Source of the DNA: a bacterium
Lineage (GTDB): Bacteria > Patescibacteriota > Gracilibacteria > Peribacterales > Peribacteraceae
Length of the DNA: 44,020 nucleotides
NCBI GenBank assembly: GCA_027623015.1
Contig: JAQBVR010000009.1
Location: 1-44,020 of the forward strand
Reading direction: 5' to 3'
The notes beneath the pieces are model-generated. The model worked only from the letters and a program-made list of their open reading frames with translations. It did no database searches and was not told the origin of the DNA. Of this stretch, positions 21,312-25,965 are shown in pieces (position 1 is the first letter of the stretch; each line of letters opens with the position of its first letter). The translations under genes were made by a program, and so were the position numbers.

Positions 21312-21968
21312 ATGAAACGTTTTCTTGTATCACTGGCACTCGTACCACTTTTGGTGGCCTGTGGAAATGCTTCTGTTACATTCGTCGTAACGACAGATGT
21401 AGAACAAACAGAACGAAAGGTTCAGATACTCTCTGCAGGTCTCCGTGTCATAGAGAGGCGGATGGCAAGTATGGGAGAAGAATTGATCAATCTAGACCTT
21501 AGAAATACAGATACTGGTGCTGAGATCGATATCGCTGTTGCTAACCAAGAGCCTATCGATAGCCTTGTCGATGTCATGACAGAGCCATTTAACCTTCGCA
21601 TCATGAAAGAATCTGGACAAGAAGACGCTCAGATCGTTGTAGAGGGACATGGTGGATTTATTAATACTCCTGTAAACGAAATGCACATAGATTGGCTCCA
21701 TGCAGCCGAAGAGCCAGGTGGCAAAGGAAGAATAACCATCACCTTTACAGACGAAGGTCGCGAACTCATGAGTGATGTGTTTAAAGAAAATATAGGTAAG
21801 TCCATTGGCCTCTTTGTCCGCAATCAACTCGTTTCCAAACTGCTTGTAGAAACCGATAAGGTCCTCGATGACATCATCATTACAGATATACCAACAGTGC
21901 AACTTGCAAATGTCTTTGCTGATGATATGAACGTTGGCCTACACGCAACATTCATAACACTTCCTTAA
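21312..21968 (+). CDS. SecD-like lipoprotein (soluble head region without membrane channel part)
   Basis: A lipoprotein signal ends in LLVAC (Cys17). The rest resembles the exported region of SecD. LSAGLRVIERRMASMGEE parallels SIRTVIERRINALGVSE in the SecD encoded next door. ITFTDEGRELMSDVF and NIGKSIGLFVRNQLVSKLLV parallel the SecD segments INFDDEGADLFQEL and NINKRIAIFVGGTLVSAPTV. The last residues (IPTVQLANVFADDMNVG) match the part just before the first SecD transmembrane helix after the head. All later SecD membrane helices are absent. It is only seven bases before secD and so almost surely cotranscribed. It may be an accessory to the SecD head or a decayed duplicate; the clean lipobox favours a functional protein. 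Confidence 0.8.
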   Translation: MKRFLVSLALVPLLVACGNASVTFVVTTDVEQTERKVQILSAGLRVIERRMASMGEELINLDLRNTDTGAEIDIAVANQEPIDSLVDVMTEPFNLRIMKESGQEDAQIVVEGHGGFINTPVNEMHIDWLHAAEEPGGKGRITITFTDEGRELMSDVFKENIGKSIGLFVRNQLVSKLLVETDKVLDDIIITDIPTVQLANVFADDMNVGLHATFITLP

Positions 21969-21975
21969 GGTTATC

Positions 21976-24387
21976 ATGGCACGTCGATCTTTCCACAAGC
22001 CTATCATCGTTTATCTTCTTGCTGCGATCATCGTCATCGTTGCTGTTCCACAAAACTCAAAACAGTGGGCACCCAAGTTTCTTCGCGATGCCAGACTGCA
22101 CTTTGGGTTGGACCTTGCAGGTGGTACACAGCTAGATTTCCGTATCTCTGAACAAGAGATCCGAGATCAGATCTCCCAGCTTAAAACAGAGATTACTCAA
22201 ACAAAAGCATTGGAAGGATCTAGCGAGGCCGTCGCTGTACTCGAACTACAGGTAACCAACATGGAAGAGCAACAGCGTACACTGGTCGAATCCATCCGTA
22301 CTGTAATCGAAAGAAGGATCAACGCTCTTGGCGTTAGTGAAGCAGTGATCACACCTTCATACATCGGTAATGAGAAGCACCTCCTTGTGGAGTGCCCTGG
22401 TATCGTAGACACGCAAAAATGTATAGAAACTGTAGGAAAGACGATCAAACTAGAGTTTAAAGAAGAATTTACTGAAGCTACAGATGAGTATCAAGATGAA
22501 GTTCGTACTCGTGCAAAAAACGCAAAAGCAACTATCCTTGCAAAAGGTGGCTCACTCGAAATAGTAGGACAGGATCTTGGAGATGAGCTTGGAATCGCAT
22601 ATGTAGAAGAGGGCCGCTACTTCCGTGACACTCTTCCCGAAGGACTCGAAAGTCTCTGGAACAAGAGCCCAAACGGACAACTCTATGAACAAACAGGTAC
22701 CATCACCTCAACGCAATCAGGCCCAGACGGCAATCCTATAACGAGCGAGATTGAAGGGATCTTTCTCTCAGAAATCACAAGAGCACGCACTGAAACAGGT
22801 CGAGTGATCACAGACCCCGGCAATGCACTGGCGCGACTCGCTCTGGACAATGCTGACGCAAAGCATGCCACCCATGACAACAACACTCTCGATGATTCTG
22901 TACCACCGCAAGTAGCTGCTGTACTCCACAGTCTTGAGCCGGGGGCACTAAACACTGTCACAGTTGCAGAAGATGATGTGCGCCTACTGTTCCTTGAATC
23001 CTTCGCAGCAGGACGGGAAGAGATGTCTGCTAGCCACATCTTAGTTACCTACAAGGGTGCCACCTCAGCAGCCTCCGAGATCACACGAACAAAGGAAGAG
23101 GCTCTTGCAAAAGTACTTGAGCTAAAGAACACACTCAATGGAGGTGCAAGCTTTGCAACTCTTGCGCAAAAAGAAAGTGATGGTCCTTCTGGGGAAAAAG
23201 GAGGAAGCCTAGGAACATTTGGTCGAGGCACTATGGTTCCTGCATTCTCCGATGCAGCATTTGCCCTAAGTAAAGGGGAGATTACTCCACCTGTTGAAAC
23301 AGCTTTTGGGTATCACTTGATCAAAGCAGATAGTGATCCTGTTTCAAAGAAAGATATAGCAAGCTACCAAGAGCTTCTAGTTTCTGGAAACAATGCTGGA
23401 GAAACAACGAAAGGATTTTTGGCTCAACTGCAAAACGGTGAGGTACGTAGTACAGAAGAAATGGTATTTATACGATCACTATTCTTCTCACTTCTTCCTA
23501 CAGGATGGCAAGACACACAACTCGATGGAAAGAACTTCAGAACTGCGACAGTCACACTCGATCCTATTACCAACATACCTGTAGTACAGATCAACTTTGA
23601 CGACGAAGGTGCAGACCTTTTCCAAGAACTCACTGCTCGCAACATCAACAAGCGCATTGCGATCTTCGTCGGGGGAACACTTGTGTCTGCTCCTACAGTC
23701 CAAACGGAGATCAGTGGAGGTACAGCTATCATCACAGGAATGCAGAACTTCGATGCAGCAAAATCACTAGCATCTGACCTGAATACAGGCGCTATCCCTG
23801 CGCCTATCTACCTCGCAGGACAGCGGACCGTAGAAGCCACTCTAGGGGCTACAGCACTACGAACATCTCTTCGTGCTGCTCTTATCGGTATCATCATCCT
23901 GATGCTCTACATGATCATTGTGTACCGATTCCTAGGCCTCCTTGCAGACATCGCCTTGAGTGCATACGCGATCATCTTCTTCGCTATCCTCAAGATGCCT
24001 CTCTTCCTCATCTCAAGTGATTACATCGTTCTTACATTGGCTGGTATGGCAGGTATCATCCTGAGTATTGGTATGGCAGTAGATGCCAACGTACTTATCT
24101 TCGAGCGTATGAAAGAAGAGATGCGTAAGGGCAAGCTTCTCTCGACTGCTGCAGAAACTGGATTCAAACGTGCATGGCCAAGCATCCGCGACGGAAACGT
24201 CTCGACACTTATCACCTGTGCCATCCTCTTTACGATCGGTACATCCATCGTTCGTGGATTTGCTATCACACTTGGTATGGGAGTGATCCTCTCTATGCTT
24301 ACAGCGATCTTAGTCACACGACTTCTCATACGTAAGGTCGCAGAAACCCCCTTAGGGAATCGTCCCGAGTTGTTTGGTGGAAAATAG
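21976..24387 (+). CDS. secD: Protein translocase subunit SecD with inserted PpiC (parvulin) domain
   Basis: SecD uses the proton gradient to help pull exported proteins through SecYEG. Residues 8-25 are TM1; FGLDLAGGTQLDF (43-55) is the conserved segment after it. VIERRINALGVSE (110-122) belongs to the P1 head. Residues 349-455 form a parvulin-type prolyl isomerase: SASHILVTYKG, FATLAQKESDGPSGEKGG, LGTFGRGTMVPAFSDAAF, TAFGYHLIKADS. The head then resumes (540-600) and five membrane helices follow from about 630, with GMAVDANVLIFERMKEE (699-715). At 803 residues it is much longer than plain SecD. No secF follows; the next genes are folate genes. Confidence 0.95.
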   Translation: MARRSFHKPIIVYLLAAIIVIVAVPQNSKQWAPKFLRDARLHFGLDLAGGTQLDFRISEQEIRDQISQLKTEITQTKALEGSSEAVAVLELQVTNMEEQQRTLVESIRTVIERRINALGVSEAVITPSYIGNEKHLLVECPGIVDTQKCIETVGKTIKLEFKEEFTEATDEYQDEVRTRAKNAKATILAKGGSLEIVGQDLGDELGIAYVEEGRYFRDTLPEGLESLWNKSPNGQLYEQTGTITSTQSGPDGNPITSEIEGIFLSEITRARTETGRVITDPGNALARLALDNADAKHATHDNNTLDDSVPPQVAAVLHSLEPGALNTVTVAEDDVRLLFLESFAAGREEMSASHILVTYKGATSAASEITRTKEEALAKVLELKNTLNGGASFATLAQKESDGPSGEKGGSLGTFGRGTMVPAFSDAAFALSKGEITPPVETAFGYHLIKADSDPVSKKDIASYQELLVSGNNAGETTKGFLAQLQNGEVRSTEEMVFIRSLFFSLLPTGWQDTQLDGKNFRTATVTLDPITNIPVVQINFDDEGADLFQELTARNINKRIAIFVGGTLVSAPTVQTEISGGTAIITGMQNFDAAKSLASDLNTGAIPAPIYLAGQRTVEATLGATALRTSLRAALIGIIILMLYMIIVYRFLGLLADIALSAYAIIFFAILKMPLFLISSDYIVLTLAGMAGIILSIGMAVDANVLIFERMKEEMRKGKLLSTAAETGFKRAWPSIRDGNVSTLITCAILFTIGTSIVRGFAITLGMGVILSMLTAILVTRLLIRKVAETPLGNRPELFGGK

Positions 24388-24408: not shown

Positions 24409-24509
24409 TACAAGATAACAAGATACAAGATACAAAACTAAATGCCTCATTACCCATTTGCATCTTGTCTCTTGTCTCTTTGAATTTTCAAATGGTATCT
24501 TGTATCTTC
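24409..24509. repeat. Inverted pair of heptamer arrays between secD and folB
   Basis: Left array 24409-24436: TACAAGA, TAACAAG, ATACAAG, ATACAAA. Right array 24461-24481: CATCTTG, TCTCTTG, TCTCTTT. It resumes at 24496-24509: TATCTTG, TATCTTC. The right units are the reverse complement of the left, so a large stem can form just before the folB start. Confidence 0.9.
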
Positions 24510-24514
24510 AATAT

Positions 24515-24871
24515 ATGTCAGATGTAATAACCATTCACGACCTAGAAATTTGGACCCACATAGGTGTTCCAGAAAGTGAACGCGCAAGTCCACAACGTGT
24601 TCTTGTGAGTGTAGAGCTTTCTCTCGATACTAAAGAAGCTGGCCAAAGTGATGACGTCACCAAGAGCATCGACTACGCCGATATCGCAAAGCAGATACTT
24701 GAGCTTGCAAAGACTGAACGTAAAACTATTGAGTGTCTTGCAGAAGACATCGCTACTTCAATAAGTACCACAACGAGTAACGCGCAACGAGTAACAAGTA
24801 ACGTTCAAGTAACCGTAACCAAATTCCCCCTCCCCGAAGCCAAAGCTGTATCGATTACGATCAAAAGATAA
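24515..24871 (+). CDS. folB: Dihydroneopterin aldolase
   Basis: FolB splits 7,8-dihydroneopterin to 6-hydroxymethyl-dihydropterin and glycolaldehyde. I use the ATG at 24515, giving MSDVITIHDLEIWTHIGVPE; the longer frame would translate the heptamer array. Other motifs: RVLVSVELSLDT, SIDYADIAKQILEL, TIECLAEDIATSI, and the final VTVTKFPLPEAKAVSITI. Length of 118 residues is normal. An internal heptamer array encodes the Thr/Asn/Val-rich stretch before VQVTVTKF. The stop overlaps the folK start as TAATG. Confidence 0.93.
   Translation: MSDVITIHDLEIWTHIGVPESERASPQRVLVSVELSLDTKEAGQSDDVTKSIDYADIAKQILELAKTERKTIECLAEDIATSISTTTSNAQRVTSNVQVTVTKFPLPEAKAVSITIKR
24772..24806 (+). repeat. Heptamer array inside folB
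   Basis: Five units: AACGAGT, AACGCGC, AACGAGT, AACAAGT, AACGTTC. They encode a loop between the last helix and last strand of FolB. Confidence 0.85.
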
Positions 24872-25383
24872 TGGCACACGTAGCTATAGCTCTTGGTAGC
24901 AACATCGAACCAGAGGTTAATCTAGCAATCTGTGCTAAGCATCTACGAAAACACTGGCCAAAGATTCGCTTCTCATCTGTATACAAAACCAAAGCACAAC
25001 TCCACGAAGACCAAGAAGATTTTTTAAATGCCGCAGCTGTATTTGAAACTGATCAATCTCTCGAAGAAGTAGTACCAATCCTCGAAAGCATAGAACAAGA
25101 ACTCGGCAAAGCGACTCCTTTTCGCTATGGCCCAAGGACAATTGACATTGATATATTGCTATATGGAGATATCGAAACTCGAAACTCGAAACTCGAAACT
25201 CGAAACATCGAAGTACCACACCCTCGCATGCACGATCGTCTCTTCGTTTTGGCTCCTCTCTGCGAGATTGTTAACTCCGATGAGCAGCACCCGGCACTTA
25301 AAACCTCGTGGGACGACCTACGGAAATCTGTAGAGGATCAGCCAATAGAGAGCACTGAAATGACACTAAATAAACAGGAATAA
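24871..25383 (+). CDS. folK: 6-hydroxymethyl-7,8-dihydropterin pyrophosphokinase (HPPK)
   Basis: FolK transfers pyrophosphate from ATP to the FolB product. Motifs: VAIALGSNIEPEVNLA at the N-terminus, SSVYKTKAQLHEDQEDFLNA, LESIEQELGK, and the signature RYGPRTIDIDILLYGD followed by VPHPRMHDRLFVLAPLCEI. The two signature Asp residues that bind magnesium are present. Between ILLYGD and VPHPRM, where most HPPKs have a short loop, a heptamer array encodes IETRNSKLETRNIE. One-base overlap with folB suggests coupled translation. folE follows 39 bases later. Confidence 0.96.
   Translation: MAHVAIALGSNIEPEVNLAICAKHLRKHWPKIRFSSVYKTKAQLHEDQEDFLNAAAVFETDQSLEEVVPILESIEQELGKATPFRYGPRTIDIDILLYGDIETRNSKLETRNIEVPHPRMHDRLFVLAPLCEIVNSDEQHPALKTSWDDLRKSVEDQPIESTEMTLNKQE
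25173..25207 (+). repeat. Heptamer array inside folK
   Basis: Four exact CGAAACT units followed by CGAAACA. They lie in the loop between the HPPK motifs ILLYGD and VPHPRM. Confidence 0.95.
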
Positions 25384-25385
25384 AC

Positions 25386-25420
25386 GATTCATAATTCAGG
25401 ATTCTTCATTCATAATTCTC
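25386..25420. repeat. Heptamer array between folK and folE
   Basis: Five units: GATTCAT, AATTCAG, GATTCTT, CATTCAT, AATTCTC. They fill the entire gap between the folK stop and the folE start. Confidence 0.85.
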
Positions 25421-25422
25421 CC

Positions 25423-25965
25423 ATGGAAGACCTATTTGCATCTCTCTTAAAGCAGCTCGGAGAAGACCCTACACGTGCAGGGCTACTCAAGACCCCAAAG
25501 CGCTGTAGCGAAGGCTACAAGTTCCTGACGAAGGGCTACAGCGAGTCGCTAGATGATATTGTGAACGATGCCCTCTTCCCTTCTGACACAGATGGCATGG
25601 TCATCGTGAAAGATATAGAGATGTACTCGCTCTGTGAGCACCACCTGCTCCCTTTCACAGGCAAAGTCCACGTAGGCTACGTCCCCGATAAGCATGTGAT
25701 AGGCCTCAGTAAGATCGCACGCATCGTAGACATGTACGCACGTAGGCTCCAAGTACAAGAGCGCCTCGGCCAACAGATCTGCGACGCACTAGACGCTGTC
25801 CTCAAACCAAAGGGCATAGGAGTCGTCATAGAAGCAGAACACTTCTGCATGATGATGCGTGGTGTGCAGAAGCAGCACTCCAAAGCTATCACCAGCCAAG
25901 TACGCGGACTCATAAAGAGTGATCCTAAAACGCGTCAGGAGTTTCTAGACTTGATCCGAAACTAG
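25423..25965 (+). CDS. folE: GTP cyclohydrolase I
   Basis: FolE converts GTP to 7,8-dihydroneopterin triphosphate, the first step of folate synthesis. Motifs: [40 protein letters not shown] (zinc Cys and catalytic His residues), [40 protein letters not shown] (second zinc Cys), and the C-terminal QEFLDLI. All zinc ligands of the classical type IA enzyme are present. Length of 180 residues is normal. It is the third gene of the fol cluster; folP and folC are not in this window. Confidence 0.97.

Follow-up and report, generated by a model that had tools for sequence, protein, structure and literature searches.

SecD of a Peribacteraceae bacterium and of many other Patescibacteria carries a parvulin-type domain inserted between the P1 base and head

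The stretch of DNA analysed here (the window) spans 44,020 nucleotides of contig JAQBVR010000009.1 from a Peribacteraceae genome (GCA_027623015.1) and holds an intact secD, encoded as one open frame at 21976-24387 on the forward strand. The three SecD domains of Pfam were found in the expected order with a Rotamase domain among them (SecD_1st at residues 105-163, Rotamase at 354-452, SecDF_P1_head at 514-609 and SecD_SecF_C at 617-788), and the protein scored 334 bits against the NCBIfam SecD model TIGR01129, which has a cut-off of 244 bits. A first-pass annotation had placed a parvulin domain at 23020-23340, and these positions correspond correctly to residues 349-455 of the 803 aa frame. The features of the locus are as follows.

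21312..21968, + strand: lipoprotein similar to the P1 domain of SecD, with neither membrane helices nor a parvulin (lipobox LLVAC; weak PF22599 match)
21976..24387, + strand: SecD with inserted parvulin module, 803 aa (SecD_1st, SecDF_P1_head, SecD_SecF_C; TIGR01129 above cut-off; single open frame)
21994..22044, + strand: first transmembrane helix, residues 7-23 (AlphaFold secondary structure; topology from known SecDF structures)
22288..22464, + strand: N-terminal part of the P1 base, SecD_1st, residues 105-163, last strand TIKLEFKE (Pfam; junction common to 70 aligned Patescibacteria SecD)
22465..22809, + strand: insert unit A, residues 164-278, putative degenerate first parvulin (positional homology to parvulin-matching units elsewhere; hhalign)
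22810..23013, + strand: insert unit B, residues 279-346, extra small alpha/beta unit (AlphaFold elements H281-291 E295-304 H311-319 E325-331 E334-344)
23014..23343, + strand: insert unit C, residues 347-456, complete parvulin (PpiC-type PPIase) (Pfam, solved-chain matches, AlphaFold, Foldseek)
23035..23037, + strand: codon of His354, active-site histidine in the ASHIL motif (kept in 34/37 relatives)
23245..23247, + strand: codon of Phe424, substrate-pocket residue (kept in 36/37 relatives)
23314..23316, + strand: codon of His447, active-site histidine in the FGYHLI motif (kept in 35/37 relatives)
23344..23505, + strand: insert unit D, residues 457-510, strand-helix-strand linker from parvulin to head (AlphaFold elements E461-470 H474-486 E491-505)
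23506..23802, + strand: SecD P1 head, residues 511-609 (Pfam PF22599, E=1.5e-23)
23824..24339, + strand: SecD transmembrane domain, residues 617-788, bearing the GMAVDANVLIFER motif (PF02355; D703 invariant in 37 sequences)

The stretch between the first and second transmembrane helices of known SecD proteins is extracytoplasmic, and it is here that the window SecD carries its extra residues. The motor residues are intact, with the transmembrane aspartate region GMAVDANVLIFER present and D703 unchanged in 37/37 sequences, and the partner SecF was found in the same genome at G000:C9:9159-9743 (E=1e-56). Foldseek comparison with Thermus thermophilus SecDF (3AQP, 5YHF) showed a common SecD core, P1 base and head, and transmembrane motor, whereas the Thermus protein has no parvulin insert at the junction of base and head. 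In the stretch G000:C9:9159-10651 (L002), away from secD, secF is a separate gene that immediately precedes the one for trigger factor. The lipoprotein encoded directly upstream of secD shares 36% identity with the SecD P1 head over 69 residues (E=5e-9) and may be a paralogue of P1 with substrate or SecD as its binding partner; a P1-like lipoprotein gene recurs in Peribacteria (L064 2781-3515, L066 2529, L067 2826). On its other side secD is followed by a series of folate genes (24458-25965, + strand), starting with dihydroneopterin aldolase (Pfam FolB) and continuing, as judged by eye, with an HPPK-like gene and then a GTP cyclohydrolase I-like gene.

The insert is 347 residues long (164-510), and the complete parvulin makes up one part of it. 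Across 70 aligned Patescibacteria SecD proteins, the insert follows the final strand of the P1 base (LEFKE or a variant of it) and stops before the W(K)xTxLxGxxLxxA motif where the head starts, and in unfused relatives within the same alignment the two motifs are linked over a short stretch. For the window protein this places the end of the base strand at ...TIKLEFKE163 and the start of the head at W511. The first-pass annotation had the domain interrupting the SecD head; the parvulin does lie inside SecD, but at the base-head junction, and an interruption of the head is ruled out by the alignment since the junction precedes the head, which is itself unbroken.

The insert had also been viewed as a single domain, and while an intact parvulin is there, it appears to be preceded by a degenerate one. 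When unit A of relatives that include Magasanik-, Uhr- and Falkowbacteria was compared with free parvulins using hhalign, the match reached 98.5% (E=2e-15), and unit A of the SecDF-type relatives reached 95.8%, against 0.1-1.0% for control comparisons with the head; in L075 and in L092 Pfam itself finds two Rotamase stretches. Unit A of the window's family gave no direct match to free parvulins (2.9%), so its homology to parvulins rests on the intermediate lineages, with a value of 87.5% against the SecDF-type units after the common LEFKE boundary was trimmed. We read the insert as a tandem pair of parvulins, in which the first copy would be decaying and the second is intact. SurA likewise pairs an inactive parvulin with an active one in tandem. 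Units B and D are present in the window's family and in some relatives, and a profile search with them gave no match.

The identity of unit C is supported by both sequence and structure. Residues 354-452 matched Pfam Rotamase at 88 bits (cut-off 21.7; E=1e-24), residues 347-451 matched Rotamase_3 (E=5e-25), and sequence matches to solved SurA, PrsA, PpiC and Pin1 chains had E values down to 9e-18. An AlphaFold model of the window SecD built from 37 natural fused sequences had a mean pLDDT of 86, with about 90-97 over most of residues 260-490 and 92-97 for the parvulin fold. Using Foldseek, the insert superposed on solved parvulins with TM 0.8-0.9 and rmsd 1.8-1.9 Å, including Pin1 (TM 0.84, rmsd 1.8-1.9) and PrsA (6xd8; TM 0.90, rmsd 1.9, 40% identity), the latter being the top fold similarity among the matches listed. 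The proposal that a complete parvulin is built into the outer side of SecD, together with the domain search suggested for it, is thus borne out by the Rotamase and Rotamase_3 matches, the confident parvulin fold in the predicted structure and the similarity to PrsA.

Both active-site histidines and the pocket phenylalanine (H354, H447 and F424) are present in the window protein, and across the 37 sequences they are kept in 34, 35 and 36, respectively, so a general replacement of the active site, which the first-pass annotation had raised as a concern, is not what we find. The catalytic-loop position, where Cys or Asp is a usual though not universal feature, is Gly403 in the window, and among the 37 sequences it is E in 14, D in 12, G in 9, A in 1 and C in 1. 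The aligned PrsA and SurA have Asp at this position, and PpiC and Pin1 have Cys. Because the window has Gly here and most relatives have Glu, Asp or Gly, parvulin activity may be low, and two relatives (L083 and L087) have lost both histidines.

A shorter insert was found in five SecD proteins (L094, L174, L202, L204 and L205), where the helices, a GGxLG-type loop and an FGYH[IL]I strand follow soon after LEFKE and the strand that bears the opening parvulin motif with its histidine (HIL[IF]) stands at the end. In the AlphaFold model of L094 the elements run helix-helix-helix-strand-helix-strand-strand-strand, with pLDDT 96-98. In 5/5 the parvulin profile aligned this terminal strand to the positions with which the profile starts; in this rotation test the score gain was a few bits and exceeded that of all shuffled controls in 3/5. 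A Foldseek search with L094 was swamped by SecDF and RND matches. A circular permutation of the parvulin in these five proteins is likely. Outside full-length SecD, the unit occurs in L182 (479 aa) and L186 (491 aa), which combine a parvulin with a P1 head and have no SecD membrane domain, and whose genomes also hold a protein of SecDF length. In L188 and L189 (family f22, within the class) a long SecD insert at the same junction has no recognisable parvulin and is perhaps a decayed module.

The window's genome (1.1 Mb, 99% complete) encodes one parvulin in total, the one borne by SecD; the free PrsA-like genes that were to be looked for are absent. Within the window's family, 56/57 genomes have exactly one parvulin match, placed in the SecD frame in at least 55/57, and by these match counts free parvulins are absent from the family as well. 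Two other prolyl isomerases were found in the window's genome, a cytosolic trigger factor and a single cyclophilin that has a lipobox and is an exported lipoprotein. The idea that the parvulin role has moved into SecD therefore holds in that parvulins are found solely there, but exported isomerisation also has the lipoprotein cyclophilin.

At the level of the class (288 genomes), a parvulin was found in 160 genomes and a SecD head in 274, and the two occur in one frame in at least 117 genomes from 16 families, a lower bound obtained by matching both lists by contig and open-frame length. Directly read loci added families f6, f7, f17 and f19, and other families carry the same insert in fused SecDF proteins of about 1020-1150 aa. 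A scan of named genomes retained 36 Patescibacteria loci, all of them fused, and since it was made with the fused region this number is not a prevalence; the loci come from Peribacteria, Peregrinibacteria, Gracilibacteria and Uhr-, Magasanik-, Falkow- and other Parcubacteria-group genomes. The count of SecD proteins with a Rotamase domain proposed in the first-pass annotation shows the arrangement to be common. Outside the class we found fused (L200, L201, L206), permuted (L202, L204, L205) and unfused (L193-L199, L207) loci, and in 30 genomes outside the phylum, picked via their parvulin matches and so not a bacterial survey, parvulin and SecD head lay in separate frames among the matches listed.

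The insertion junction is the same in all aligned fused SecD proteins. Several families of the class have SecD without a recognisable parvulin, and the module is therefore dispensable in some lineages. In a tree of the SecD core with the insert left out, fused and unfused proteins were intermixed and 8 changes between the two states were needed, though such a tree cannot tell gain from loss; the parvulin-domain tree, whose starred branches require 2 or more changes, lacks the resolution to establish a single origin over several. These sequence comparisons agree best with an early insertion that was later lost in some lineages and remodelled in others, which is favoured over separate gains.

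Foldases at the translocon are known from other bacteria. The accepted view of the SecDF P1 domain, as given in PMC9987972, is that it binds polypeptide and that proton transport drives its movement; in the same paper, SurA of E. coli binds the holo-translocon, with AlphaFold putting both SurA parvulin domains on the SecDF P1 head. SurA thus resembles the window SecD in having parvulin-type domains at the P1 head, but it is a separate soluble protein whose contact with SecDF rests on EM and prediction, whereas the window module is covalent. PpiD-YfgM associates with SecYEG (PMC9643414) and likewise presents a parvulin anchored at the translocon exit; PpiD, however, has its own membrane anchor and is not part of SecD, and its parvulin is reported as inactive (Weininger 2010, as cited in PMC9643414), from which a parvulin at the translocon need not be an enzyme. 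PrsA of Gram-positive bacteria is also an extracytoplasmic, membrane-anchored parvulin, but a free, lipid-anchored one with its own chaperone domain. The features that mark PrsA, SurA and PpiD (a free-standing protein, its own anchor or signal, and chaperone domains) are not those of the window domain, which lies inside SecD.

By analogy with these systems, the parvulin module most likely serves as a tethered foldase or holdase at the SecYEG exit, and we consider it fairly probable that, from the P1 base-head junction, it holds and isomerises emerging chains in place of free SurA, PpiD or PrsA. The module would sit outside the membrane beside the channel exit and move with the P1 domain; as SecDF pulls the emerging chain, the parvulin would receive or scan it, keep it unfolded and isomerise its prolyl bonds, so that one polypeptide would do the job of the separate SurA, PpiD and PrsA found elsewhere. 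Substrate contact, catalysis and coupling to the proton-driven P1 movement are what we infer here, and the whole-model pTM of 0.46, which means that the orientation of the module is not fixed by the model, counts against this explanation. A further proposal, which we put forward tentatively, is a force-coupled foldase in which a proton-driven swing of P1 would feed a covalent parvulin pair, with the module reshaped in place, including the permutation that moves the first strand to the end.

We think it unlikely, though worth weighing, that the parvulin only binds, as a holdase or peptide clamp, with most of its catalysis lost, as reported for PpiD. The Gly that the window has in place of Cys/Asp and the variability there among relatives, the loss of both histidines in L083 and L087 and the clear degeneracy of the first copy would agree with this, but nearly all of the 37 divergent sequences retain the histidines and the pocket Phe, beyond what a binding surface needs. 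A structural role for the module, as a spacer in the P1 base-head hinge or a regulator of it, with no contact to clients, seems improbable: its position exactly at the boundary and the strong variation of insert length among lineages speak for such a role, but a spacer has no need of conserved active-site residues, and L184 (G131:C1, 323 aa) has both parvulin units, one degenerate and one intact, as a stand-alone exported protein in a genome that also has a fused SecDF. An assembly or gene-calling artefact, suggested by nothing more than the metagenome origin of most relatives, has a negligible chance of being correct and is ruled out by the recurrence of one stop-free frame with the same junction in scores of independently assembled genomes; its presence in so many class genomes and families and in every retained named locus instead indicates that the fusion is under selection.

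Both protein families are already known, and so is the concept of a foldase placed where chains leave the translocon. We found no earlier report of a SecD-parvulin fusion in the literature searched, which included few subscription journals; the covalent, widespread and remodelled form may thus be new to that literature, though sequence databases may show the domain order. A tethered foldase or holdase in SecD would bear on whether exported chains are handed directly from SecD to a prolyl isomerase, as a widespread natural fusion at the place where SurA is predicted to make contact provides independent evidence for SecD and prolyl isomerases acting jointly. The fusion also provides a single polypeptide for testing the coupling of export and folding, and it shows a way in which very small genomes may handle extracytoplasmic folding without a free parvulin.
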